A stretch of 47,126 nucleotides of DNA from an uncultured Gammaproteobacteria bacterium. GTDB lineage: Bacteria; Pseudomonadota; Gammaproteobacteria; DRLM01. Position 1 is the first letter of the stretch. Every line of letters starts with the position of its first letter. Below, one piece after another: positions 2,157-19,944 of the stretch. The notes beneath the pieces are model-generated. The model made no database searches. It worked only from the letters and a program-made list of their open reading frames with translations, and had not been told where the DNA came from. Made by a program: the position numbers and the translations under genes. The stretch lies in assembly GCA_947259075.1 (NCBI GenBank), contig CAMYKQ010000057.1, forward strand, positions 199,246 through 246,371, read 5' to 3'.

Positions 2157-5100
2157 ATGATTATTACCGTGCCACAACGCGACCTGTTCCACTGGCGCCG
2201 CACCCGGCGCGGCAAAAGGGAAGTTGCCATCTGCCGGCGTATCACCATCGCCACCTTAATTAGCTTTGGCGTCGCTACCTCCGCCGCCGCCGCCCCCGCT
2301 GGCGGGGTCGTGACCTCGGGCACGGGCGCTATTTCGCAAACGGGCGCGGTTACCGCTATCACGCAAGAGAGTCAGCGCCTCGATATCGACTGGAACGGCT
2401 TTTCCATCGCCGCGGGTGAAACGGTGAATTTCGCCCAGCCAAACGATTTAGCGGTGGCCGTCAATCGCGTAATAGGCGGCGCGCCCAGCGAACTGAGCGG
2501 CGCGCTCAATGCCAACGGCCGCGTCTTCATTCTCAATCAAGCCGGCGTGGTGTTCCATCAATCGGCGCAAGTGAACGTGGGCGCCTTATTGGCCACCACC
2601 GCCACCGCCGTGAATGTCAGCGCCTTGATCGGCAGCGAGAGTTACAACTTCAGCGGCGCGAATTCCGGCAGCGTGGTCAATCACGGCAATATCACCATTT
2701 CCGATGGCGGCTTTGCCATCCTCGCCGCGCCTCAGGTACACAACACCGGCATGATCCAAGCCGATTTGGGTGAAATTCATCTCGCCGCCACCACGGCCTA
2801 TACCCTCGATTTGCGCGGCGATGGCTTGATTAATTTCGCCATCCCCGCCGAGGCGCTGCAAAACGCCGTGGGTGGCGTGCAAGCCGACGGCACGTTGCGC
2901 GCGCGCTCCGGCCTGGTGACGCTCGACGCCCGCACCGCCACCGATGCGGTCAAAGGCGTGGTGAATCTCGACGGCGTCATCGACGCCGATGCCTTGGTCA
3001 GCGGCGGCCAGGGCGGTAAGGTGATGCTCGCGGCCGCGGGCGATATCGTCATGGGCGAGACCGCCGCCATTCATGCCGATCACGGCGCCACGGGCGATAT
3101 CGTGTTCGATGCGGGCGGCGATATCGATGCCGGAAATCTTGGCGTTAATGTCAGCGGCACGGGTGATGTCAGCGCCAATGTGAGCATGCGGGCGGGCGGA
3201 CATCTTAATGTCGCTCACATTGATGTGAGCGCGGTTTCAAACCACTTGGCCGCCGCCAGAATCGATCTCCAAGCCAGTGGAGACATCACGGTTTCCAACG
3301 GCCTCAGCGCGACCTCTCTCGCCTCTACGGATAAAGACAAAGCGCCCTACTCGGCCGCCGACATCGCGGTTTATTCCGGCCACGGCGGTATTACTCTCAG
3401 CGGCGATACCCTGGCGCTATCCACGGTCAATGGCCGCGACGGCGCCTATGAATTCGGCACGGCCGAAGCGCATACCAACATCAATGTATCCGCGGCGCGG
3501 GCGCTCACCGCGCACGGCAATATCGCCCTGCGTACGGACGCGTATTTCGGCGGTGAACGCGGCGACTCGGAGGCCCACACTAACTTGGGACTGCATAGCC
3601 GCGACAGCGGCGATATCACCCTCAACGGCGATATCGCCATCGACAATCTGGCCACGCGGAATGTGTACCGCAGCGCCGAAGCCATCATCAATGCGGACAT
3701 CAGCGCCGCGCACAACGTCATCATCAACGGCGGCCTGAGCATGAGCAACAAAGCCCTGGCCATCAGCGTGGGCCGTTCGGGCTACTACACCGACGGCGCC
3801 TGCATGGCCTCGGCCGACACCACGCTGAACATCCATGCCGGCACCGCTGGCAGCGGTGATTTAATCATCACCAAAGGATTGAACGTCGATGCTTACGCCA
3901 GTCTGCAATTCGGCGGCACGCACAGCGCCAACGCCTTTATCACGGCGGATTTAACCGCCGCGAATGACATTATGATCTCGGGCGCGAGCGATGCGATAAA
4001 CCTCAGCGCCATCGGCTACAACACGGCCCAAAGCGCCACCAAGTCCTTCGCCTATATTGATCTCGGCATGACGGCGGGCACCGCCGGGGCGGGCGATGTC
4101 CGCGTCAATGGCAATCTCAGCGCCAACGCCGATGTGTATATGAAGGATGGTAAATTCCTCAATGGCGCGGCCACCACCGTCGACATCCAAAGCCCCGATG
4201 ATATCTACATCGCTGGCGATGTCAGCCTCACCAGCACCCTGGACGCCACGACCCGCCGACGTTACTCGCGCGCGGAAACCCTTTTCATTGCCACGGCCGG
4301 ACACGACGGCAGCGGTCGACTCACCATCACGGGTGACACCCATGTCAGTGTCGCGGCAAAGACCGCCGGCACCATTGAGGCACACACCACCACGGCCCTG
4401 ACGCAACTCACGGCGCCCGGCGATATTCAATTGGGGGGACTGAGCGTCTCCGCGCGCGGTGATTACAGTCCGGCGTCGGGCAGTGATGCCGATGTCGATG
4501 CCCATGCCTTCATCACCAGTTCGGGCAATGGCGATATAACGCTCGACGGCGACCTCCTCGTGACCGCCCATGCCGTGCAACGGGCCGCTAACAAGGCCGA
4601 TGCCCAGGCATGGGCGCGGCTCGACGCGGCCAGACATCTCAGCATTAACGGCGACATCACCGTCCGCGCCGACGCGCTGAGCGATACGGGCGCCACGGAC
4701 GCCCTGTCCGCGGCCAACCTTGTTGTGCAAGCGGGCATGGGCGGCAGCGGTAATCTGCATATCACCGGCGATATCGTCAGCGCGGCGAGCGCGCACGCGG
4801 AGAGCGGCATGAAATCGGCCATCGCCGCCGTGACACTGGGTGCGGCGGACGACCTCACCGTACATGGCGCCGATCCACTGGCGCAGGCCTCGAGCGCCTT
4901 CGTACAAGGGCGTGAAAGTCTTGCGGACGATCAATCCGCCGCTGGCGATACTGACCTTGCCAGCCTGAGCTTGAACGCGGGCGGCATCCTCACCGTTGCA
5001 ATCGCGCCTCCGCCTTCCGCGCCCGAACCCGTGATTGAGCTCGCGCCTGACACAGGCCCGGACGACAGCGTCGCGCAAACCCCGTCCGCCGCGCCGGAAG

Positions 5101-5498
5101 AAACCGCAAACGCCGGCAATACGGGCACGGGAGAGATTAATCACGAGACACCCCGTAATGACGCCCACGTCACCAATGACACGCACGCGGCCAATCCCAA
5201 CTCACCCGCCCCGCCCCTTGCCGCGAGACATTCGTCCGGCAAGGTGAATGTCAGCGTGATCTCGGCCTTCAACGCCACATCCGGCCCGCGCGGCCATGTT
5301 ATTTCCGTGTCCTCGCACGCCGCGGAACACGGCGCGATGAACTCAGACTCAGCCTCAGCGCTGGACGGCGTGATCTTCGAAATCGATTGGGGCAACGTGG
5401 ATATGCCGGGAAAAACAATCGGCCCCGTTTCCGCTTTGAGCACACCGCTCAACGAAGACGGGTCCGCCGCCGATACAGGAGAACGTAAGCGCCGCTAA
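2157..5498 (+). CDS. TpsA-type exoprotein with filamentous haemagglutinin N-terminal secretion domain
   Basis: The 1113-residue product starts with a long basic N-region and an Ala-rich cleavage zone at about residues 40-46, the extended signal peptide style of TpsA proteins. Residues from about 47 to 300 form the TPS secretion domain: GGVVTSGTGAISQTG, then VNFAQPNDLAVAVNRV and NANGRVFILNQAGVVF (NANG at 118-121, the counterpart of the conserved NPNG/NQxG motifs). The remainder is built of imperfect repeats such as GDITLNGDIAIDN and GDITLDGDLLVT, as expected for a right-handed beta-helix. A Pro/Ala/Glu-rich segment (about 945-1025) precedes a last globular-looking piece. The mature protein has a single Cys, and tyrosines are few. 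It is short compared with FhaB-class adhesins. A stem-loop follows, then tpsB. The receptor or function (adhesin, biofilm, other) cannot be told from sequence. An AAGGGG ribosome site supports the ATG at 2157. Confidence 0.9.
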   Translation: MIITVPQRDLFHWRRTRRGKREVAICRRITIATLISFGVATSAAAAPAGGVVTSGTGAISQTGAVTAITQESQRLDIDWNGFSIAAGETVNFAQPNDLAVAVNRVIGGAPSELSGALNANGRVFILNQAGVVFHQSAQVNVGALLATTATAVNVSALIGSESYNFSGANSGSVVNHGNITISDGGFAILAAPQVHNTGMIQADLGEIHLAATTAYTLDLRGDGLINFAIPAEALQNAVGGVQADGTLRARSGLVTLDARTATDAVKGVVNLDGVIDADALVSGGQGGKVMLAAAGDIVMGETAAIHADHGATGDIVFDAGGDIDAGNLGVNVSGTGDVSANVSMRAGGHLNVAHIDVSAVSNHLAAARIDLQASGDITVSNGLSATSLASTDKDKAPYSAADIAVYSGHGGITLSGDTLALSTVNGRDGAYEFGTAEAHTNINVSAARALTAHGNIALRTDAYFGGERGDSEAHTNLGLHSRDSGDITLNGDIAIDNLATRNVYRSAEAIINADISAAHNVIINGGLSMSNKALAISVGRSGYYTDGACMASADTTLNIHAGTAGSGDLIITKGLNVDAYASLQFGGTHSANAFITADLTAANDIMISGASDAINLSAIGYNTAQSATKSFAYIDLGMTAGTAGAGDVRVNGNLSANADVYMKDGKFLNGAATTVDIQSPDDIYIAGDVSLTSTLDATTRRRYSRAETLFIATAGHDGSGRLTITGDTHVSVAAKTAGTIEAHTTTALTQLTAPGDIQLGGLSVSARGDYSPASGSDADVDAHAFITSSGNGDITLDGDLLVTAHAVQRAANKADAQAWARLDAARHLSINGDITVRADALSDTGATDALSAANLVVQAGMGGSGNLHITGDIVSAASAHAESGMKSAIAAVTLGAADDLTVHGADPLAQASSAFVQGRESLADDQSAAGDTDLASLSLNAGGILTVAIAPPPSAPEPVIELAPDTGPDDSVAQTPSAAPEETANAGNTGTGEINHETPRNDAHVTNDTHAANPNSPAPPLAARHSSGKVNVSVISAFNATSGPRGHVISVSSHAAEHGAMNSDSASALDGVIFEIDWGNVDMPGKTIGPVSALSTPLNEDGSAADTGERKRR

Positions 5499-5507
5499 AT
5501 TCGCGCC

Positions 5508-5544
5508 ACTGGGGCGGCACGCGAAAACGCGCGGCCGCCCCAGT
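5508..5544 (+). terminator. Stem-loop between tpsA and tpsB
   Basis: ACTGGGGCGGC (5508-5518) pairs perfectly with GCCGCCCCAGT (5534-5544), and the loop contains a second small GCG-AAAA-CGC pairing. No T-run follows, so it is not a classical intrinsic terminator. It may reduce read-through or stabilise the upstream message, giving more TpsA than TpsB, which suits a secreted protein and its pore. Confidence 0.6.
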
Positions 5545-5563
5545 AACAAGGGATTGTGATTCG

Positions 5564-7276
5564 ATGCACCGGGCCAGCCTTGATATTCATCACAGCACGC
5601 CACCCCGCTACCGGGGTGGCATTACTCATTTATCTTTATGCCTCGCCGCCGTGTTGCTCGCCGCGCCCGGGTTCGCCGCTGGAGAAAGTCGCGCGCCCGG
5701 CGTCATCGACCGCCCCTCCGGGTCATTGCCTGACTTGGAGCGCGGCGCGCCGGGCGAGTTGCCCGCCACGCCCCGGCCCGCGCCGCCGTCCACGGACGAA
5801 ACGGATACGCCGATCGCGACCTTCGACGCCGTGACGTTCGCGGGCATGAGCGTGATTTCCGCGGCGGAACTGTCGCGCGTGGCGGCGGCTTATCTCCATC
5901 GCCCTCTCAGCAGCGCCGACCTCGCACAACTTAAATTCGATCTCACCCGTTTGTATTTCGAACGCGGTTACGTGCTGGTGAAGATCACCACGCCGCCGCA
6001 AGACATCAGCGGCGGCATTTTAAAAATCGTCATCCACGAGGCCCGTGTCGGGCAACTGCAGCTCAATTACGAAGGACTGTTGCGCGAGCGCATCGCCACC
6101 GCGCTGGCGCGGCAACTGAAACGCGATGCGGTGTTCCATGAAGGCGATATTGAATCTTTGGCCAACGACTACAACGATCTCACCGGCTTGCGCGCGGCGC
6201 TCACACTGCACAAAGGCGCGGCACCGGGCACCACGGATTTGACTTTGAATCTCACGGAGGAAGACGAAGACATTCAGCAATTCACGCTCGACAACTACGG
6301 CAGCGATCTCACGGGAAACTGGGTGGGCGGCGCACGCCTGCAAACCAGCAATCGCTTGCGCCTAGGCGAGACCCTGGGCCTGCAGCTGCGTGCCTCCGGC
6401 GGCGATTTGTGGAGCGCGGGCATAGATGCGCGCTCACCGCTGGGCCTAAATAATATGTGGCTGCAATTCGAATACAGTCACAGCGAAAACACCATCGGCG
6501 GCAGTCTCGCCTATCTCGACGCCAGCGGCAGCTCGGACCGGGCCAGCCTCTCGCTCTCCAGCGCCTTAATCAATACACGTTCGCGCAAGGCTACTCTGCG
6601 CAGCGGTTTGGAAATACGCAGGCATGTATCCGAACTCGCCCAGGTCACCGAAAGCCGCGATCAAATTCGCCAATGGCTGGTCGAAGGCAGTTATCTGCTG
6701 CGGCAAACAAACTGGATGACGTACGGCGCCGTCACGCTGACGAAAGGCTTGAACCTTCTCGGCGCCAGCGAGCAAGGTGACGCACTCGCCTCGCGCAGCC
6801 ACGGCGAACCCGCGGCATGGCGCCTGCAACCCTTGCTGTATGGTGTGCTTCGGCTCGGCGCGGACAAACATGTCAAGGCGGTTTTTTCCGGGCAAATCGC
6901 CAGCCATACCTTGCTCTCCTCCGACTTGTTCGCCCTCGGCGGCTACGGCAGCGTGCGCGGCTTTCAACCCGCCGAAAGCACCGGCGAAACCGGCGCACAG
7001 TATTCATTGGAATACCTGCAGCGTCTGGGCGCGTGGTCCACGGCGCAATGGACGGCGGGGATATTCAGCGACGGCGGCTGGGTATGGAATCGCGAAGACA
7101 ATAGCGTCGCCGATGACACGCTCATCAGCGCCGGCCTCTCCGTGGAAGCCGCATTCCGCGCACAGACGCGCCGCGGCACTACGCTGCGCGTCGACGCCGC
7201 CGCGCCGCTCGGCGAGTATCAAGCAAAAACCGTGGACGACTTCCAAATCCTGGTGCGGCTCACACACTTGTTTTAA
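5564..7276 (+). CDS. TpsB outer-membrane transporter (ShlB/FhaC/HecB family)
   Basis: This 570-residue protein should be the two-partner secretion pore for the TpsA encoded just upstream. The N-terminus has a signal peptide (hydrophobic LSLCLAAVLLAAPGFAAG). A Pro-rich linker follows, then a ShlB-type POTRA domain from about residue 87 (FDAVTFAGMSVISAAEL...LYFERGYVLVKI), a second POTRA-like section (about 165-240) and a 16-strand type beta-barrel region. The conserved L6 loop motif is present as GSVRGFQ (VRGF at 464-467), and the protein ends in ...FQILVRLTHLF with a terminal aromatic residue, the usual outer-membrane barrel signature. AAGGGA about 10 nt before the ATG supports the start. The order tpsA-tpsB and the 65-bp gap match known TPS operons. 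Specific pairing with the upstream TpsA is inferred from linkage. Confidence 0.92.
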   Translation: MHRASLDIHHSTPPRYRGGITHLSLCLAAVLLAAPGFAAGESRAPGVIDRPSGSLPDLERGAPGELPATPRPAPPSTDETDTPIATFDAVTFAGMSVISAAELSRVAAAYLHRPLSSADLAQLKFDLTRLYFERGYVLVKITTPPQDISGGILKIVIHEARVGQLQLNYEGLLRERIATALARQLKRDAVFHEGDIESLANDYNDLTGLRAALTLHKGAAPGTTDLTLNLTEEDEDIQQFTLDNYGSDLTGNWVGGARLQTSNRLRLGETLGLQLRASGGDLWSAGIDARSPLGLNNMWLQFEYSHSENTIGGSLAYLDASGSSDRASLSLSSALINTRSRKATLRSGLEIRRHVSELAQVTESRDQIRQWLVEGSYLLRQTNWMTYGAVTLTKGLNLLGASEQGDALASRSHGEPAAWRLQPLLYGVLRLGADKHVKAVFSGQIASHTLLSSDLFALGGYGSVRGFQPAESTGETGAQYSLEYLQRLGAWSTAQWTAGIFSDGGWVWNREDNSVADDTLISAGLSVEAAFRAQTRRGTTLRVDAAAPLGEYQAKTVDDFQILVRLTHLF

Positions 7277-7293
7277 TCAAACACGAGGCAATC

Positions 7294-8379
7294 ATGGGCC
7301 TGACATTGACATTGACCGACACCGAATTACCCGCGTCACCGGCGTTCATTGAATTTTTACACGCGACCATCACCGGCGGCGACTACCACGTCGGCACGTG
7401 GTATCTGCAACAAGAAGAGCTTTTAGATCACGACGGTGAACGTTTCGAGGGCCTGGCGGATAAAGTCCGCGCCGTGATGCAACACCCGCAGGGTACGCAA
7501 GCCATCATGCGTTCCTACCGTTTCTTCAAGGAAATGTTGACGGGCAAAATGGACACCTTGCGTGATCTGCGGCGTTTCCATTTCATCTTCGTCATCGGCA
7601 TCCCGCGCACCGGCGGCACCTATCTCACCAAGCAGTTCTACCGCGCCGCGGGCATTGATTACACTAAGGTGCAAAATGCCTTGGCGCATGACGGCTTCCC
7701 GCACTTGGCGACGCTCAGCTTTCCGGACAATCGTTACAACGTCCACACCACCAGCCTCTTGCAACTGGCTGAATACCTCACCATGGTGGAAATATATTTC
7801 ACGCGCCATGGCCGCCTCGCCTATCAAGGCGGCATCGTAGTGCCTAAAAAATTCACCAAGGCGGTCTACAACTTCCCGCTCATTCGCGCCTTGTTAGGCG
7901 CGCAGGCCAGTTTTCTCTTTACCGTGCGTCATCCGCTCGCCGTAATTCAGTCCGTGCTGGATAAAAGCGGGGGCATGCCTGAAAACGAACGTTTTGCCGT
8001 ACGCAGCGCCATCGAGCGCTGGGCCTTGGACGATTGGACCCAGTGGCAGGTACCGGAAGCTGAAGTGATGCGGCGGAATTATGTGGATGTCATGCTGCAA
8101 TATTGGAAACGCTTCCATTTTCAAGCCGCCATGTCGGGCATACTCGCCATGACGAACACCCAAGTCGTCCCCTACACGCCCAGCGCCATGAGTAACATCG
8201 TGGTGGAATACTACCGCCAATTTGGTATCGCGCTTGAACCCGAACCCTTCAAAACCTCCACTCCACCGCACTTCCCCGATAAAGAAGCGGCCGCGCAACA
8301 AGTTATCAACGAAGTGGAACAATGCTGGCACTATTTGGGCTCGCCATTTCCCACTGAGGCCTTGGCCGGAAAATCATAA
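7294..8379 (+). CDS. Sulfotransferase family protein linked to the TPS cassette
   Basis: The 361-residue cytoplasmic protein carries the two PAPS-binding signatures of sulfotransferases. The 5'-phosphosulfate loop is IFVIGIPRTGGTYLTK, with GIPRTGGT at 102-109. The 3'-phosphate block is FTVRHPLAVIQSVLDKSGG, with R212 and a downstream Ser. It would move a sulfuryl group from PAPS onto a hydroxyl or amine of an unidentified acceptor. No signal peptide is seen. The start follows GAGG with good spacing, 17 bp after the tpsB stop, so co-transcription with tpsB is likely. In other TPS systems a third gene can encode a modifying enzyme (for example the HMW1C glycosyltransferase). By analogy this enzyme could modify TpsA, the exported paralogues, or a surface glycan. 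That role is inference. Confidence 0.85.
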   Translation: MGLTLTLTDTELPASPAFIEFLHATITGGDYHVGTWYLQQEELLDHDGERFEGLADKVRAVMQHPQGTQAIMRSYRFFKEMLTGKMDTLRDLRRFHFIFVIGIPRTGGTYLTKQFYRAAGIDYTKVQNALAHDGFPHLATLSFPDNRYNVHTTSLLQLAEYLTMVEIYFTRHGRLAYQGGIVVPKKFTKAVYNFPLIRALLGAQASFLFTVRHPLAVIQSVLDKSGGMPENERFAVRSAIERWALDDWTQWQVPEAEVMRRNYVDVMLQYWKRFHFQAAMSGILAMTNTQVVPYTPSAMSNIVVEYYRQFGIALEPEPFKTSTPPHFPDKEAAAQQVINEVEQCWHYLGSPFPTEALAGKS

Positions 8380-8576: not shown

Positions 8577-8626
8577 TAGGCCCAGGTGGGGGTATACAAT
8601 CCGGATATAACCGGGGGATGAGGTTT

Positions 8627-9535
8627 ATGTCTAATTATAAGAAAACGCTTGCCATTAGCACGGGATTCTATTGTCTTCTGCTAGGCGCACCAGCCAGTCA
8701 AGCCGATTTTGCCCTTAATTGGGCGGCTCGGGGCGATATCTTCGGAGTAAACAACCCTGCTGCAAACTGCAATAGGGCTGAAGGCTCGGTGCAGTGCAGA
8801 ATTCAATCCGCCCAAGTAAGTATTCTCGATCCCGATAATACGCCTTTCTTGCAGGAACGCATTACCGGCAGCGACGGCCAGACGTACTATCACGTCATCG
8901 TCGGGCTTCCTACCGATAAATTCTCCCAAGAAACCTTCATACGCGCCGGCGGCACAGTGTGGGCACCCTCGTTTGTGAGCGCGGTTGGCTCTTCAAGCGG
9001 TGGCTCGTTCACTTTTCAAGGTTCTGGCCCCAGATCTACCGTCTTCAACAATCAAAGACCTCTGGACGCGGACGAAAATATTTCAGGCAACTCCACAGGT
9101 AATCCGAAACGCGTAGAGATGCGGCAGGTTAATAACGACGGCGAATTCTTTCAGGAATTCGTGAAAGAGAGCGTACTGGTAAGCACAGTTGGCGGCGTAA
9201 ATGTTTTCAACAACAAGCCTAGAATAACTCAAACTCTCAATAATGCCGATATCAGCGCCACCTTCGTCGCGGATATGCGGAATCTAAATTACGATGACAT
9301 AAATACCGGTGTTCCGATTACTAACACCATCGTATTTGCAGATGGTGCAGGTAATTTCGACATGGCGCTTGATGGGCAATTGGTCAACGTCACCGCCGGT
9401 AAATACCGTTGGGTACCCGGTACGGGTCCCGATCAAAGCAGTGGCACGTATCAATATCTTGAGGGTGGTTATGACCCTTATCTTGAAAATTGGCAGTCCT
9501 ACCGCAGTCCTACCGAAAACATTACTAAACGATGA
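8627..9535 (+). CDS. Exported protein of unknown family, paralogue B of the secretion cassette
   Basis: The 302-residue protein has a signal peptide (MSNYKKTLAISTGFYCLLLG, cleavage after about ASQA) and a mature start DFALNW that mirrors AFELNF of the protein at 887-2110. Shared blocks in the same order include GQTYYHVIVG, SQETFIRAGGTVW, GNSTGNPKRVEMR, PRITQTLNN, VADMRN, VTAGKYRW and GTYQYLEGGYD. It is about 100 residues shorter. I chose the ATG at 8627 because GATGAGG lies 4 nt before it; an in-frame ATG at 8618 would add three residues and overlaps that ribosome site. Base composition is more AT-rich than in the tps genes. The gene ends before a strong terminator. Function is unknown; homology and linkage suggest it works with, or is a substrate of, the same secretion and sulfation cassette. 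Confidence 0.75.
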   Translation: MSNYKKTLAISTGFYCLLLGAPASQADFALNWAARGDIFGVNNPAANCNRAEGSVQCRIQSAQVSILDPDNTPFLQERITGSDGQTYYHVIVGLPTDKFSQETFIRAGGTVWAPSFVSAVGSSSGGSFTFQGSGPRSTVFNNQRPLDADENISGNSTGNPKRVEMRQVNNDGEFFQEFVKESVLVSTVGGVNVFNNKPRITQTLNNADISATFVADMRNLNYDDINTGVPITNTIVFADGAGNFDMALDGQLVNVTAGKYRWVPGTGPDQSSGTYQYLEGGYDPYLENWQSYRSPTENITKR

Positions 9536-9717: not shown

Positions 9718-11742
9718 ATGAACGCCACCCAACGCACCATCCTGGTCACCAGCGCCTTACCCTACGCCAATGGCCCCATCCACCTCGGTCATTTGGTGGA
9801 ATACATTCAAACTGACATCTGGGTGCGCTTCCAAAAAATGCGGGGGCACCGCTGCAGCTATGTCTGCGCCGACGACGCCCACGGCACCCCGATCATGCTG
9901 CGCGCCCAGCAGGAGGGCATCTCGCCCGAAACCCTGATCGCGCGCATCGGTGAAGAACACCGCGCCGATTTCGCCGGTTTCGCCATCGACTTCGACAACT
10001 ACCACAGCACCCACTCGCCGGAAAATCGCGAGCTCGCCAGCCTGATTTACAATCGCCTGCGTGAACAAGGGCACATCAGCACACGGACCATCACCCAAGC
10101 TTTTGATCCGGAAAAACAGATGTTTTTGCCGGATCGCTTCATCAAGGGCGAATGCCCGCGCTGCGGCGCAGCCGATCAATACGGCGACAGTTGCGAGGTA
10201 TGTGGCGCCACGTATTCACCCTCGGATTTGAAAAATGCCGTCTCCGCCCTCTCTGGCGCACGGCCCATCGAAAAAGAATCGCTGCACCATTTCTTCAAAC
10301 TCGGTGAGTTTAGTGACATGTTGCGCCGCTGGACCAGCGGCGGCCACCTGCAGCCAGAGGTCTCCAACAAACTCAATGAATGGTTCGAGGCCGGCTTGCA
10401 GGAATGGGATATTTCGCGCGACGCGCCCTACTTCGGCTTTGAAATCCCCGGGGCGCCGGGCAAATATTTCTATGTGTGGCTCGACGCGCCCATCGGCTAT
10501 ATGGCCAGTTTCAAGGCCTACTGCGCGCGCAGCGGTTTATCCTTCGACGATTACTGGGCCAAAGACAGCAAAGCGGAACTGTATCACTTCATCGGTAAAG
10601 ACATCGTCTACTTCCACGCCTTGTTCTGGCCCGCGATGCTGGAAGGCGCGGGCTTTCGCACGCCCACGGCGATCTTCGCCCACGGTTTTCTCACGGTCAA
10701 CGGCCAAAAGATGTCGAAATCTCGCGGCACCTTCATCAAGGCGCGCAGCTACCTCGACCAGCTCAACCCGGAATACTTGCGCTATTACTTCGCCGCCAAA
10801 TTGAGCAGCGGCGTCGATGACCTCGACCTGAATTTGGACGACTTCGCCCAACGCGTGAACGCGGATTTAGTGGGCAAGGTGGTGAATATCGCCAGCCGCT
10901 GCGCCGGCTTCATCAGCAAACGCTTCGACGGACGCCTCTCGGCCAACCTGGCCGACGCCGCGCTGTATCAAGAATTCACCGCCGCGAGCGAGGCCATCGC
11001 CGCCAGCTACGAAGGCCGCGACTACAGCCGCGCGGTGCGCGAAATCATGGCCCTCGCCGACCGCGCCAATCAATACATCGACGAGAAAAAACCTTGGGTC
11101 ATCGCTAAAGAGGCCGGCCGCGAGGCTGAACTCCAAGCCGTATGCAGCCTCGGCCTCAATCTTTTCCGCGCGCTCATCACCTATTTAAAACCCGTGCTGC
11201 CACGCACCGCCGCGCTCGCCGAGCATTTTTTGCAGTGCGGTGAACTCCAGTGGGACAGTCCGCGCACGCCATTGCTCGATCATGCCATCGCCCCTTTTCA
11301 AGCACTGATGACCCGCGTCGAAGCCCCACAGGTACAGGCCATGCTCGACGCCTCCAAGGAAAATCTGCAAGCCACCGCGGTCTCTGATAAATCCGCGGCG
11401 TCGGAGCCCATATTAGCGACCATCAGCTACGACGACTTCGCCAAGATTGATCTGCGTGTCGCCCGCATCGTCGCCGCCGAGGCCGTGGCGGAGGCGGATA
11501 AATTGCTGCGCTTGACCCTGGACCTGGGCGGCGAACAACGCCATGTCTTCGCCGGCATCAAATCCGCTTACAGCGCCGAGCAGCTGGTGGGCAAACACAC
11601 GCTAATGGTAGCCAATCTCGCGCCGCGCGAGATGCGTTTCGGCGTTTCCGAAGGCATGGTGCTCGCCGCCGGGCCGGGCGGCAAAGACATCTGGCTGCTG
11701 GAACCGCACGCCGGTGCTCAAGCGGGCATGCGGATCAAATAA
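9718..11742 (+). CDS. metG: Methionine--tRNA ligase
   Basis: The 674-residue class I synthetase charges tRNA-Met in the cytoplasm. The N-terminus contains the HIGH-type signature in [16 protein letters not shown]. The connecting peptide has the four-Cys zinc knuckle CPRCG...CEVCG, and the second ATP site appears as [12 protein letters not shown]. An anticodon-binding helical domain follows. The C-terminal about 110 residues ([15 protein letters not shown]...[25 protein letters not shown]) form the appended tRNA-binding/dimerisation domain typical of the long bacterial MetG. Length matches the E. coli-type enzyme. The downstream neighbour is the rsx operon, a common gammaproteobacterial order. 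Confidence 0.97.
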
Positions 11743-18296: not shown

Positions 18297-18755
18297 ATGG
18301 ATAAAAAAACCAAATCCCTGCTTACACTCGCCGCGCTGGCCACGGCCCTGCTACTCTCGTATTTCGTCAGCGAGCCGCCGCCCGCAACACAACCCGTCAA
18401 TGGCAGCGCGGGGCTGTCCAAGGGCGACGACGCCATCACCACGGCCTTTCGTGAACGCCGCTCCGATGTCTGGGTGGAGACACAGGGCACGGTCATAAAA
18501 ATATTGAGCGACGATAACGAAGGCTCACGCCACCAGCGCTTCATACTGCGCCTGGGATCAAACCACACTGTATTGGTCGCGCACAACATCGACCTCGCCC
18601 CGCGCATCGACGAACTGAAAGTGGGTGACACGGTAAACCTGCGCGGCGAATACGAATGGAACGAACGCGGCGGCGTGATTCACTGGACCCATCACGACCC
18701 GCAAGGACGGCATGAGGGTGGGTGGATACGGCATGAGGGGGAGACTTATCAGTAA
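18297..18755 (+). CDS. DUF3465 domain protein, exported or membrane-anchored
   Basis: The 152-residue product has an N-terminal hydrophobic segment (LLTLAALATALLLSYFVS) acting as a signal or anchor. The small beta-rich domain that follows contains LAPRIDELKVGDTVNLRGEYEWNERGGVIHWTHHDP, which I recognise as the DUF3465 pattern; it looks like an OB-fold, but that is an inference. It is probably the last gene of the rsx-nth run; the intergenic stretch behind it is distinctly AT-richer. Confidence 0.78.
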   Translation: MDKKTKSLLTLAALATALLLSYFVSEPPPATQPVNGSAGLSKGDDAITTAFRERRSDVWVETQGTVIKILSDDNEGSRHQRFILRLGSNHTVLVAHNIDLAPRIDELKVGDTVNLRGEYEWNERGGVIHWTHHDPQGRHEGGWIRHEGETYQ

Positions 18756-18996
18756 GGGATGTGGCGTGTGGGTTAGTATTCATTTGTAGTAGCACCAGCT
18801 CGCGCTGAAAATCCGCGCCAGGTAAATCTGAGTTTTTATGTGGACTGAATTCTCCTAGTTCGGTCATTTGCAGCAAGTAGCCTGGTTAAGGCTTCCGAAC
18901 GCTGCGCATCCCCGATTACGTGTCTCCATGCACAGCAGGCTCCCTACGGATGATCTATAACAGAAGCATACCTGCTTTCTGGATAATCAATATTAA
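18756..18996. other. AT-richer intergenic stretch at the left edge of the retron island
   Basis: No coding region with family character is visible here. Base composition drops clearly from that of the rsx-nth genes. This is the likely left junction of the inserted retron locus. I found no attachment-site repeat shared with the right side (20870-21001). Confidence 0.5.
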
Positions 18997-19025
18997 TTGA
19001 CTCACAGTCACATTTATGCTCTAAT
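18997..19025 (+). promoter_or_regulatory. Strong sigma-70 promoter for the retron leader
   Basis: TTGACT (18997-19002), a spacer of exactly 17 bp and TCTAAT (19020-19025) give 5 of 6 matches at each hexamer. TGC just before the -10 adds an extended -10 element. The predicted start at about 19031-19034 falls right at the first base-paired leader element and about 310 nt before the first start codon, which fits production of a structured RNA. Confidence 0.7.
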
Positions 19026-19030
19026 TGCCG

Positions 19031-19341
19031 AAGGCTGAGCGTTACCGCTCAGTTCGTTCTTTAATAGCTAGGCTCCTAATCCCCCCATGGCGCGAGACTG
19101 TTCGTTACGCCTGAATAAGTTTTTTCAGGCAGCTCCATCATGTATGTCAGTTGGAGAATGCCCGGTGCGCTCGTTCATGTATGGATGCACGAGACGTGGG
19201 AAGCCCCGATGCTACACAGGTAGTTAAGGGGACTTCCATTTAGCCGGGAATCAGATGATGTAGGGCTTGTAGCATCGAGATGGCTCCTTTCGGTCCAGCG
19301 CTGTATGGGGACACGGCACTTCTGCCGAAAAGGAGCGATAT
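19031..19341 (+). ncRNA. Structured leader RNA, candidate retron msr-msd region
   Basis: Between the promoter and the 79-codon gene lies about 310 nt packed with inverted repeats. They are CTGAGCG/CGCTCAG (19035-19041 with 19046-19052), GCCTGAA/TTCAGGC (19109-19115 with 19124-19130), CTCCA/TGGAG (19133-19137 with 19152-19156) and CTCGT/ACGAG (19170-19174 with 19189-19193). Next are GGAAGCCCC with GGGGACTTCC (19199-19207 with 19228-19237, one bulge), CGATGCTACA/TGTAGCATCG (19207-19216 with 19268-19277, perfect) and GCTCCTTTCGG with CCGAAAAGGAGC (19283-19293 with 19325-19336, one bulge). Short 5' hairpins followed by longer pairings resemble an msr then msd layout upstream of retron genes. I could not fix the a1/a2 ends or the branching guanosine, so the exact limits are uncertain. 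The last hairpin hides the ribosome site of the next gene. Confidence 0.55.
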
Positions 19342-19581
19342 ATGAAAGCTAGTACATTGAAGAACTGCATCGCAACGCTTGTAAAGCTGCGCGATGTATA
19401 TGAAAGCCAACTCGATGCCCGTGTTTTAGAAGAGTTAGATGAAGTGATCGCTGCGCTTAAAGGTAAGGTAAGCGATAACAACCAATGTGAAGAAAACCTG
19501 AGCGTTATCGGTTTTCGAGCACTGGTACTCATCGAATGCATCATCAATATCGTGACAAACGTCACCACCCTGATGAAGTAA
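19342..19581 (+). CDS. Small unknown protein of the retron locus
   Basis: The 79-residue product starts MKASTLKNCIATLVKLRDVY, continues with an amphipathic helical stretch (LDARVLEELDEVIAALK), has a short polar linker and ends with a hydrophobic helix (VLIECIINIVTNVTTLM). No family name can be given with certainty. The ribosome site AAGGAG (19330-19335) is 6 nt before the ATG and lies inside a predicted stem. It shares its orientation and probably its transcript with the HTH and reverse transcriptase genes, so it may be the effector or an accessory factor of the retron. The C-terminal helix contains a Glu and so is not a clean transmembrane segment. Confidence 0.65.
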   Translation: MKASTLKNCIATLVKLRDVYESQLDARVLEELDEVIAALKGKVSDNNQCEENLSVIGFRALVLIECIINIVTNVTTLMK

Positions 19582-19641
19582 AAACGACGCTAGAAACACA
19601 GCAAGCCCTAACATTATTTATTAAGTTTTCAGGAATACTCT

Positions 19642-19944
19642 ATGAATATCGGTCAAGCCATCAAAATGTGTCGTACGCAACGATCGCTATCACAAAAAAT
19701 ACTCGCGCAGCGCGCAGACTGTTCGGTGTCTTATCTTTCATTGTTAGAAAACAATCAGCGTGATCCAACGCTGTCGACAATCAAGAAGATTTCTCTTGCT
19801 CTCAATATACCCATAGGAATTCTTTTTTTCCTCGCGGCTGATCGAGATGATATTTCCGGCATGGATAAGGAGCTAGCGGGTCAAATTGCAAGAACAGCTT
19901 TGGAGCTTCTCAGTGAGCCGGATACCCAACCGTCTTTTTTATAA
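19642..19944 (+). CDS. XRE-family helix-turn-helix protein of the retron locus
   Basis: The 100-residue protein has a classical Cro/C1-type HTH at residues 3-60 (IGQAIKMCRTQRSLSQKILAQ, then SVSYLSLLENNQRDPTLSTIKKISLAL). A short tail (ELAGQIARTALELLSEP) follows. AGGA 8 nt before the ATG supports the start. It overlaps the reverse transcriptase reading frame by about 30 nt, a sign of a single operon. The published retron classification includes a type (type VI, from memory) whose accessory gene is an HTH protein; membership is inferred here. It may repress the promoter at 18997-19025 or act in phage sensing. Confidence 0.85.
   Translation: MNIGQAIKMCRTQRSLSQKILAQRADCSVSYLSLLENNQRDPTLSTIKKISLALNIPIGILFFLAADRDDISGMDKELAGQIARTALELLSEPDTQPSFL

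Follow-up and report, generated by a model that had tools for sequence, protein, structure and literature searches.

The window, the whole stretch of 47,126 nucleotides that was analysed, comes from an uncultured gammaproteobacterium and contains three genes in succession on the forward strand: tpsA, tpsB and a sulfotransferase-fold gene, here called ST. They are separated by gaps of 65 bp (tpsA-tpsB) and 17 bp (tpsB-ST). The tpsA gene (2157-5498, +) encodes 1113 aa with a two-partner secretion (TPS) domain, a repetitive beta-helix-like passenger and an extended signal peptide, the last judged by eye. Pfam places the TPS domain (PF05860, 5.3e-28, residues 45-279) near the N-terminus, and the protein thus qualifies as a type Vb cargo. 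The adjoining tpsB gene (5564-7276, +) encodes a 570-aa outer-membrane protein with POTRA domain and ShlB barrel (Pfam: PF03865 ShlB, 1.1e-26; PF08479 POTRA_2, 1.5e-15); by these domains and its position beside tpsA it qualifies as a type Vb transporter. ST (7294-8379, +) encodes a protein of 361 aa without an apparent signal peptide, classed as a PAPS-type sulfotransferase on the basis of fold, invariant motifs and linkage. The original prediction that the three genes are consecutive, with 17 bp between tpsB and the sulfotransferase gene, held against ORF coordinates, Pfam and fold. In the host genome (3.1 Mb, 99.9% complete), there is a single TPS-domain protein and a single ShlB protein, so the cargo of the TPS system is unambiguous.

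Exported genes lie on both sides of this trio. A gene for a 407-aa exported protein of unknown family and without Pfam match (887-2110, +) is located 46 bp upstream of tpsA. The nearest locus-bearing relatives of the host genome are gammaproteobacterial metagenome genomes, some labelled Chromatiaceae. In a member of the same genus (G001, 81%) and a member of the same family (G003, 77%), the upstream exported gene, tpsA, tpsB and ST are all present in the same order, with the exported gene in front of tpsA at 82% and 64%, respectively. Because this gene is only 46 bp from tpsA and has been kept there in both nearest relatives, the local unit probably consists of four genes, of which 887-2110 is probably the first. 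An exported paralogue of its product (8618-9535, +; 305 aa) begins 238 bp after ST; G003 has kept it, and in G001 it does not adjoin the operon. The two groups are 28-29% identical to each other, and the downstream paralogue is less likely to belong to the operon unit. More copies of this family, which has no Pfam match, occur elsewhere in the host genome and in relatives without the operon. Outside the host's bacterial group, the family of 887-2110 is not found beside ST, except for a paralogue in one locus (L020). The operon genes are under purifying selection (dN/dS 0.14-0.28 against G001 and G003). A scan for promoters and terminators gave a result at chance level.

The assignment of ST rests on structure and motifs. 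Against PF13469 (Sulfotransfer_3), ST scored 20 bits (E 8.7e-4), under the curated cut-off of 27, and no NCBIfam match was obtained. In the set of 39 ST homologues, which extends down to about 33% identity, 7 members match PF13469 at E<=0.01. ST lies outside Sulfotransfer_3 as curated in Pfam and is placed in the PAPS sulfotransferase superfamily by its fold and motifs. An AlphaFold2 model built with the 39-homologue alignment was confident (pLDDT 90.1, pTM 0.90). When this model was searched with Foldseek and VIA-align, human TPST2 and TPST1 came at the top, followed by other PAPS sulfotransferases; the match to TPST has a Foldseek E of 1.8e-4 and a VIA Z of 12.2 (rmsd 4.3, 215 residues), and all 50 VIA-align rows shown are sulfotransferases (Z 9.7-12.2). 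TPST is first in the ranking, yet within Z 1 of others, including the mycobacterial STF9. Since the fold ranks are tied within this margin, kinship with TPST is not proven. Sequence searches of the PDB with the ST protein and the ST profile gave nothing useful, including no TPST match by profile, and a scan of viral contigs found no ST relative. The model thus predicts, with high confidence, a PAPS sulfotransferase fold; sulfate transfer itself is inferred.

Both regions expected to contact PAPS are conserved in the ST family. The 5'-PSB region (residues 101-112, IGIPRTGGTYLT; 7594-7629, +) contains the invariant R105, G107, G108 and T112, and its loop is a PRxGG(S/T) variant of the usual PRSGT(T) form. 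In the 3'-PB region (residues 212-220, RHPLAVIQS; 7927-7953, +), the invariant R212 and S220 are eight residues apart, the same spacing as in known sulfotransferases. In total, R105, G107, G108, T112, H132, D133, E160, K186, R212, S220, R237 and E241 are invariant in 39 of 39 homologues. The pair H132-D133 (7687-7692, +) is a candidate for the catalytic base by position only; it and K186 may be catalytic residues, again an inference from position alone.

Supply of the sulfate donor was considered from the APS kinase genes. The host genome has an APS kinase (3.9e-61) and, elsewhere, other sulfotransferases, and sulfation is therefore not confined to the tps locus. With only strong matches counted (E<1e-20), APS kinase was present in 31 of 35 genomes that carry ST, compared with 75 of 137 ST-free relatives (Fisher p=1.7e-4); some of this association may stem from genome size and kinship. 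In one betaproteobacterial locus (L052), an APS kinase gene (11097-11678, -; 2.6e-48) is located between ST and tpsB on the opposite strand; its gene content implies that donor synthesis is encoded inside the ST/tps locus.

The association of ST with TPS genes is not limited to the window. Scanning the genome collection with six aligned ST homologues as query yielded 42 loci, and profile searches for the neighbours placed 33 of these beside TPS genes: 20 with tpsA or tpsB by HMM and 13 with sapC. The 13 sapC-only loci were counted as TPS-linked; most also contain fecR and a long ORF cut off where the contig stops. Among the remaining loci, six are intact and unlinked (L041, L046, L051, L053, L054, L055), ST is broken in two (L057, L059), and in one (L058) it sits at the edge of a contig. 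An evenly drawn sample of 369 genomes from the class contained 15 with ST and 56 with tpsB at E<=1e-15; ST was found in 11 of the 56 genomes with tpsB versus 4 of the 313 without (p=3e-7), and it adjoins tps genes in all 11 sampled genomes that have both. The four closest TpsB proteins (>=36% identity), separated by a wide score gap from the remaining TpsBs, all have ST adjacent.

Further intact homologues without linkage occur in another genome (G126) and on an Acidithiobacillus caldus plasmid; the existence of such homologues shows that the ST family is not restricted to TPS. The A. caldus copy, on a megaplasmid (L105, NZ_CP005987.1:119686-120834), has no TPS genes near it and several YajG-family lipoprotein genes close by. 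In Mesorhizobium (L051:8322-9457) and Nonomuraea (L055:11062-12264), the unlinked ST genes have in common a pair of convergent genes whose family is unknown, which gives the ST family a conserved context of another kind.

Gene order varies among the linked loci. In clade I, the type found in the window, the order is tpsA-tpsB-ST. In clade II, it is tpsB-tpsA-fecR-sapC-ST, with one member having tpsB between tpsA and sapC. The genes that follow the clade II ST, for example ffh and malic enzyme, are unrelated housekeeping genes, which makes ST the last gene of the unit. A Solimonas genome (L104, L029, L103) has sapC-ST-tpsA, without a tpsB in the roughly 10 kb upstream of the trio or the roughly 15 kb downstream of it. 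The betaproteobacterial locus reads ST, APS kinase, tpsB, tpsA, and a divergent locus (G395) reads tpsB-tpsA-small ORF-divergent ST-TPR/glycosyltransferase-like gene. In the ST tree, clade I forms one group (100/99), and clade II forms one group except for two nested rows without linkage. The deep ST lineages differ in gene order yet keep TPS linkage. This linkage outlasts reordering and thus points to function, and TpsA is the constant partner of ST across the gene orders.

Decay of ST can also be observed. Genome G364, of the same genus as the operon-bearing G115 and G266, has no tpsB match and only a remnant of ST (L102:9471-11240), which lies beside the conserved downstream ThiF gene. In L057 (3784-4876), ST is frameshifted, the usual downstream genes are kept and no TPS genes are adjacent. 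In both cases ST has probably lost its use together with the operon; it is possible, however, that the frameshift in L057 is a sequencing error. A functional coupling of the tps genes with ST had been inferred from sequence alone in the original prediction, and it is supported by the recurrent linkage, the several gene orders and the decay where the operon is missing. The neighbourhood survey named beforehand as a possible refutation has been run and, with 33 of 42 ST loci TPS-linked, was passed.

Several clusters contain additional or rearranged genes. In G039 (L014:3648-3964, 4431-4584, 18498-19690), ST is split into two ORFs by a segment repeated upstream of tpsA; the split gene is next to TpsA and TpsB, and a degraded second ST copy is near. 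This split counts against the role in TpsA sulfation favoured below. Tyr makes up 5% of the TpsA at that locus, which has roughly one hundred Tyr-Gly pairs. Two related clade I loci (L024:7314-7880, L025:8213-8794) encode an AAA_28 P-loop kinase-like protein that starts about 10 bp after ST. In the divergent locus (L096:9613-12400), a very distant ST relative is followed 8 bp on by a TPR protein with a glycosyltransferase-9-like end. In clade II, the gene immediately before ST encodes SapC (PF07277; L034:9256-10008 and some two dozen loci). SapC was modelled with confidence (pLDDT 91), and PDB searches gave no match; it may be a second modifier of TpsA, of unknown chemistry.

The sequence of TpsA was examined for a possible acceptor. 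Of the 16 Tyr in the window TpsA, 14 belong to the passenger, where they occur at about one per 40-aa repeat, and several are next to Asp or Glu. The earlier statement that it has no obvious acidic tyrosine sites was too strong. Passenger Tyr residues show 8 pairs at a lag of 35-43 versus 2.0 expected, and both near relatives retain 8 of the 14. This periodicity is the strongest of all residues in the window TpsA, with Glu close, and the homologues vary; it is possibly meaningful and is offered as a lead only. Between 25 ST-linked and 15 unlinked TpsAs, no difference was found in Tyr content (median 1.73% vs 1.97%, p=0.64) or in the acidic context of Tyr. Twelve features, Tyr included, gave nothing in the same comparison of linked and unlinked TpsAs except slightly less Lys+Arg in the linked group (p=0.008, uncorrected). 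Some clade II TpsAs are nearly without Tyr (<0.5%), and this, with the absence of a Tyr difference between linked and unlinked cargos, makes one Tyr site common to all ST-linked TpsAs unlikely. Ser/Thr or an attached sugar could be the sulfate acceptor instead. The original prediction had left the acceptor unsettled, holding a glycan hydroxyl equally possible; the acceptor remains unproven, as does sulfation itself.

Clade II TpsAs (L026, L030, L031, L034, L036, L038, L093-L095, L100) have a mostly acidic C-terminal tail in which a single Cys lies close to the terminus. Two of these genomes encode further TpsAs at other sites (L081, L082, L083), and these have a similar tail. From this common tail, it is possible that one ST/SapC set serves several cargos in trans.

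For the operon, gene content, fold, conserved PAPS motifs, recurrent linkage and APS kinase are shown. We favour, with a rough probability of 0.58, the reading that ST is a cytosolic third partner which sulfates TpsA before export; catalysis, substrate, acceptor residue and benefit are all inferred. TpsA would be made in the cytoplasm, where ST, without an export signal, would draw sulfate from PAPS provided through the APS kinase of the host genome. ST would then sulfate hydroxyls of TpsA, most likely on side chains of the passenger repeats, either ahead of Sec export or while it proceeds. Since no signal peptide is apparent in ST and PAPS is cytosolic, the modification would naturally be expected to precede Sec export, as it does for HMW1C (PMC3983070). 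The modified TpsA would cross the outer membrane via TpsB, and the outcome may be a surface or released beta-helix filament with more negative charge. The benefit of sulfation may lie in charge, stability or ligand binding. In a bolder reading, which we could argue as easily against as for, these operons would be a widespread and unrecognised type Vb class with at least three partners, in which a dedicated cytosolic ST sulfates the TpsA polypeptide itself, in one lineage alongside the putative second modifier SapC.

Two other substrates should be considered, both unlikely. ST could sulfate a sugar on TpsA, with a glycosyltransferase acting first and ST second. Sulfate is often put on sugars, and in G395 a glycosyltransferase-9-like TPR gene directly follows the divergent ST beside tpsB-tpsA. 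However, clade I operons have no glycosyltransferase gene, neither the host genome nor the two relatives that carry the operon have a GT41 (PF13844) enzyme, and G395 represents a single locus whose branch is very long. Alternatively, ST could sulfate a TpsA-bound surface glycan, lipid or small molecule, or else a different exported protein, for instance that encoded by 887-2110, in which case the operon would reflect a shared task rather than an enzyme-substrate pair. The additional sulfotransferases of the host genome, the intact ST homologues without TPS and the exported gene adjoining tpsA speak for it. Against it, the family of 887-2110 does not accompany ST outside the host group save in L020, and ST accompanies TpsA in several different gene arrangements and has decayed where the operon is absent. 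That ST is a sulfotransferase-fold chaperone or export factor for TpsA which has lost sulfate transfer is very unlikely: the sub-threshold Pfam score of the window ST, the 7 of 39 members matching Sulfotransfer_3 and the unusual PRxGG(S/T) loop would fit, but R105, H132, D133, K186, R212 and S220, invariant in 39 members, would hardly be needed by a non-catalytic scaffold, and one locus (L052) has an APS kinase gene inside it.

Coupling of ST and the tps genes is likely and well supported by comparative genomics; sulfation of TpsA is not shown. With a recurrent link of this kind, kept through rearrangement, type V secretion would gain a new chemical modification and an unnamed sulfotransferase family would gain a role. 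If the bolder reading is true, it would mean protein sulfation of giant bacterial surface proteins. Solimonas fluminis and Sinimarinibacterium sp. are culturable carriers of the link.

Extra partners are known from other TPS systems. A review of TPS lists glycosyltransferases, CdiC acyltransferase-like proteins, a TonB-dependent transporter and proteases, and no sulfotransferase (PMC5422565). In the open-licence literature searched, no TPS-linked sulfotransferase was described, and only passing co-mentions of both were found. The hmw1ABC and hmw2ABC loci of Haemophilus influenzae combine TPS with the cytoplasmic glycosyltransferase HMW1C (PMC5422565, PMC3983070). By analogy, hmw1ABC and the window operon are both TPS units of three genes, the third of which codes for a cytosolic enzyme with a predicted role in modifying TpsA ahead of export. 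ST, however, is a PAPS-type sulfotransferase and not a GT41 glycosyltransferase, which the host genome lacks (PF13844), and its acceptor is unknown. CdiC, an acyltransferase-like extra protein of cdiBCAI operons with unknown function (PMC5422565), is likewise a predicted modifying enzyme inside a TPS operon; the enzyme class differs, and the cdi cargo has toxin delivery and an immunity gene, neither of which was noticed at the window locus. TPST1 and TPST2, the best fold matches of ST, have a similar P-loop-like motif and Arg/Ser pair, but ST has no sequence-profile match to them and no proven Tyr substrate.

Bacterial protein sulfation is known from very few systems, with RaxST as the model. 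In the raxX-raxSTAB cluster of Xanthomonas, the RaxST sulfotransferase is encoded with a type I secretion system (PMC4216712, PMC6637879). RaxST is, by analogy, the closest earlier example of a sulfotransferase associated with a secretion system (PMC4216712). Both RaxST and ST are bacterial sulfotransferases encoded with a secretion system and fed by APS kinase, and the exported product of the rax system is sulfated. Secretion in the window is of type Vb, however, and the cargo is not a small peptide but a protein of about 1,000 to 5,700 residues.
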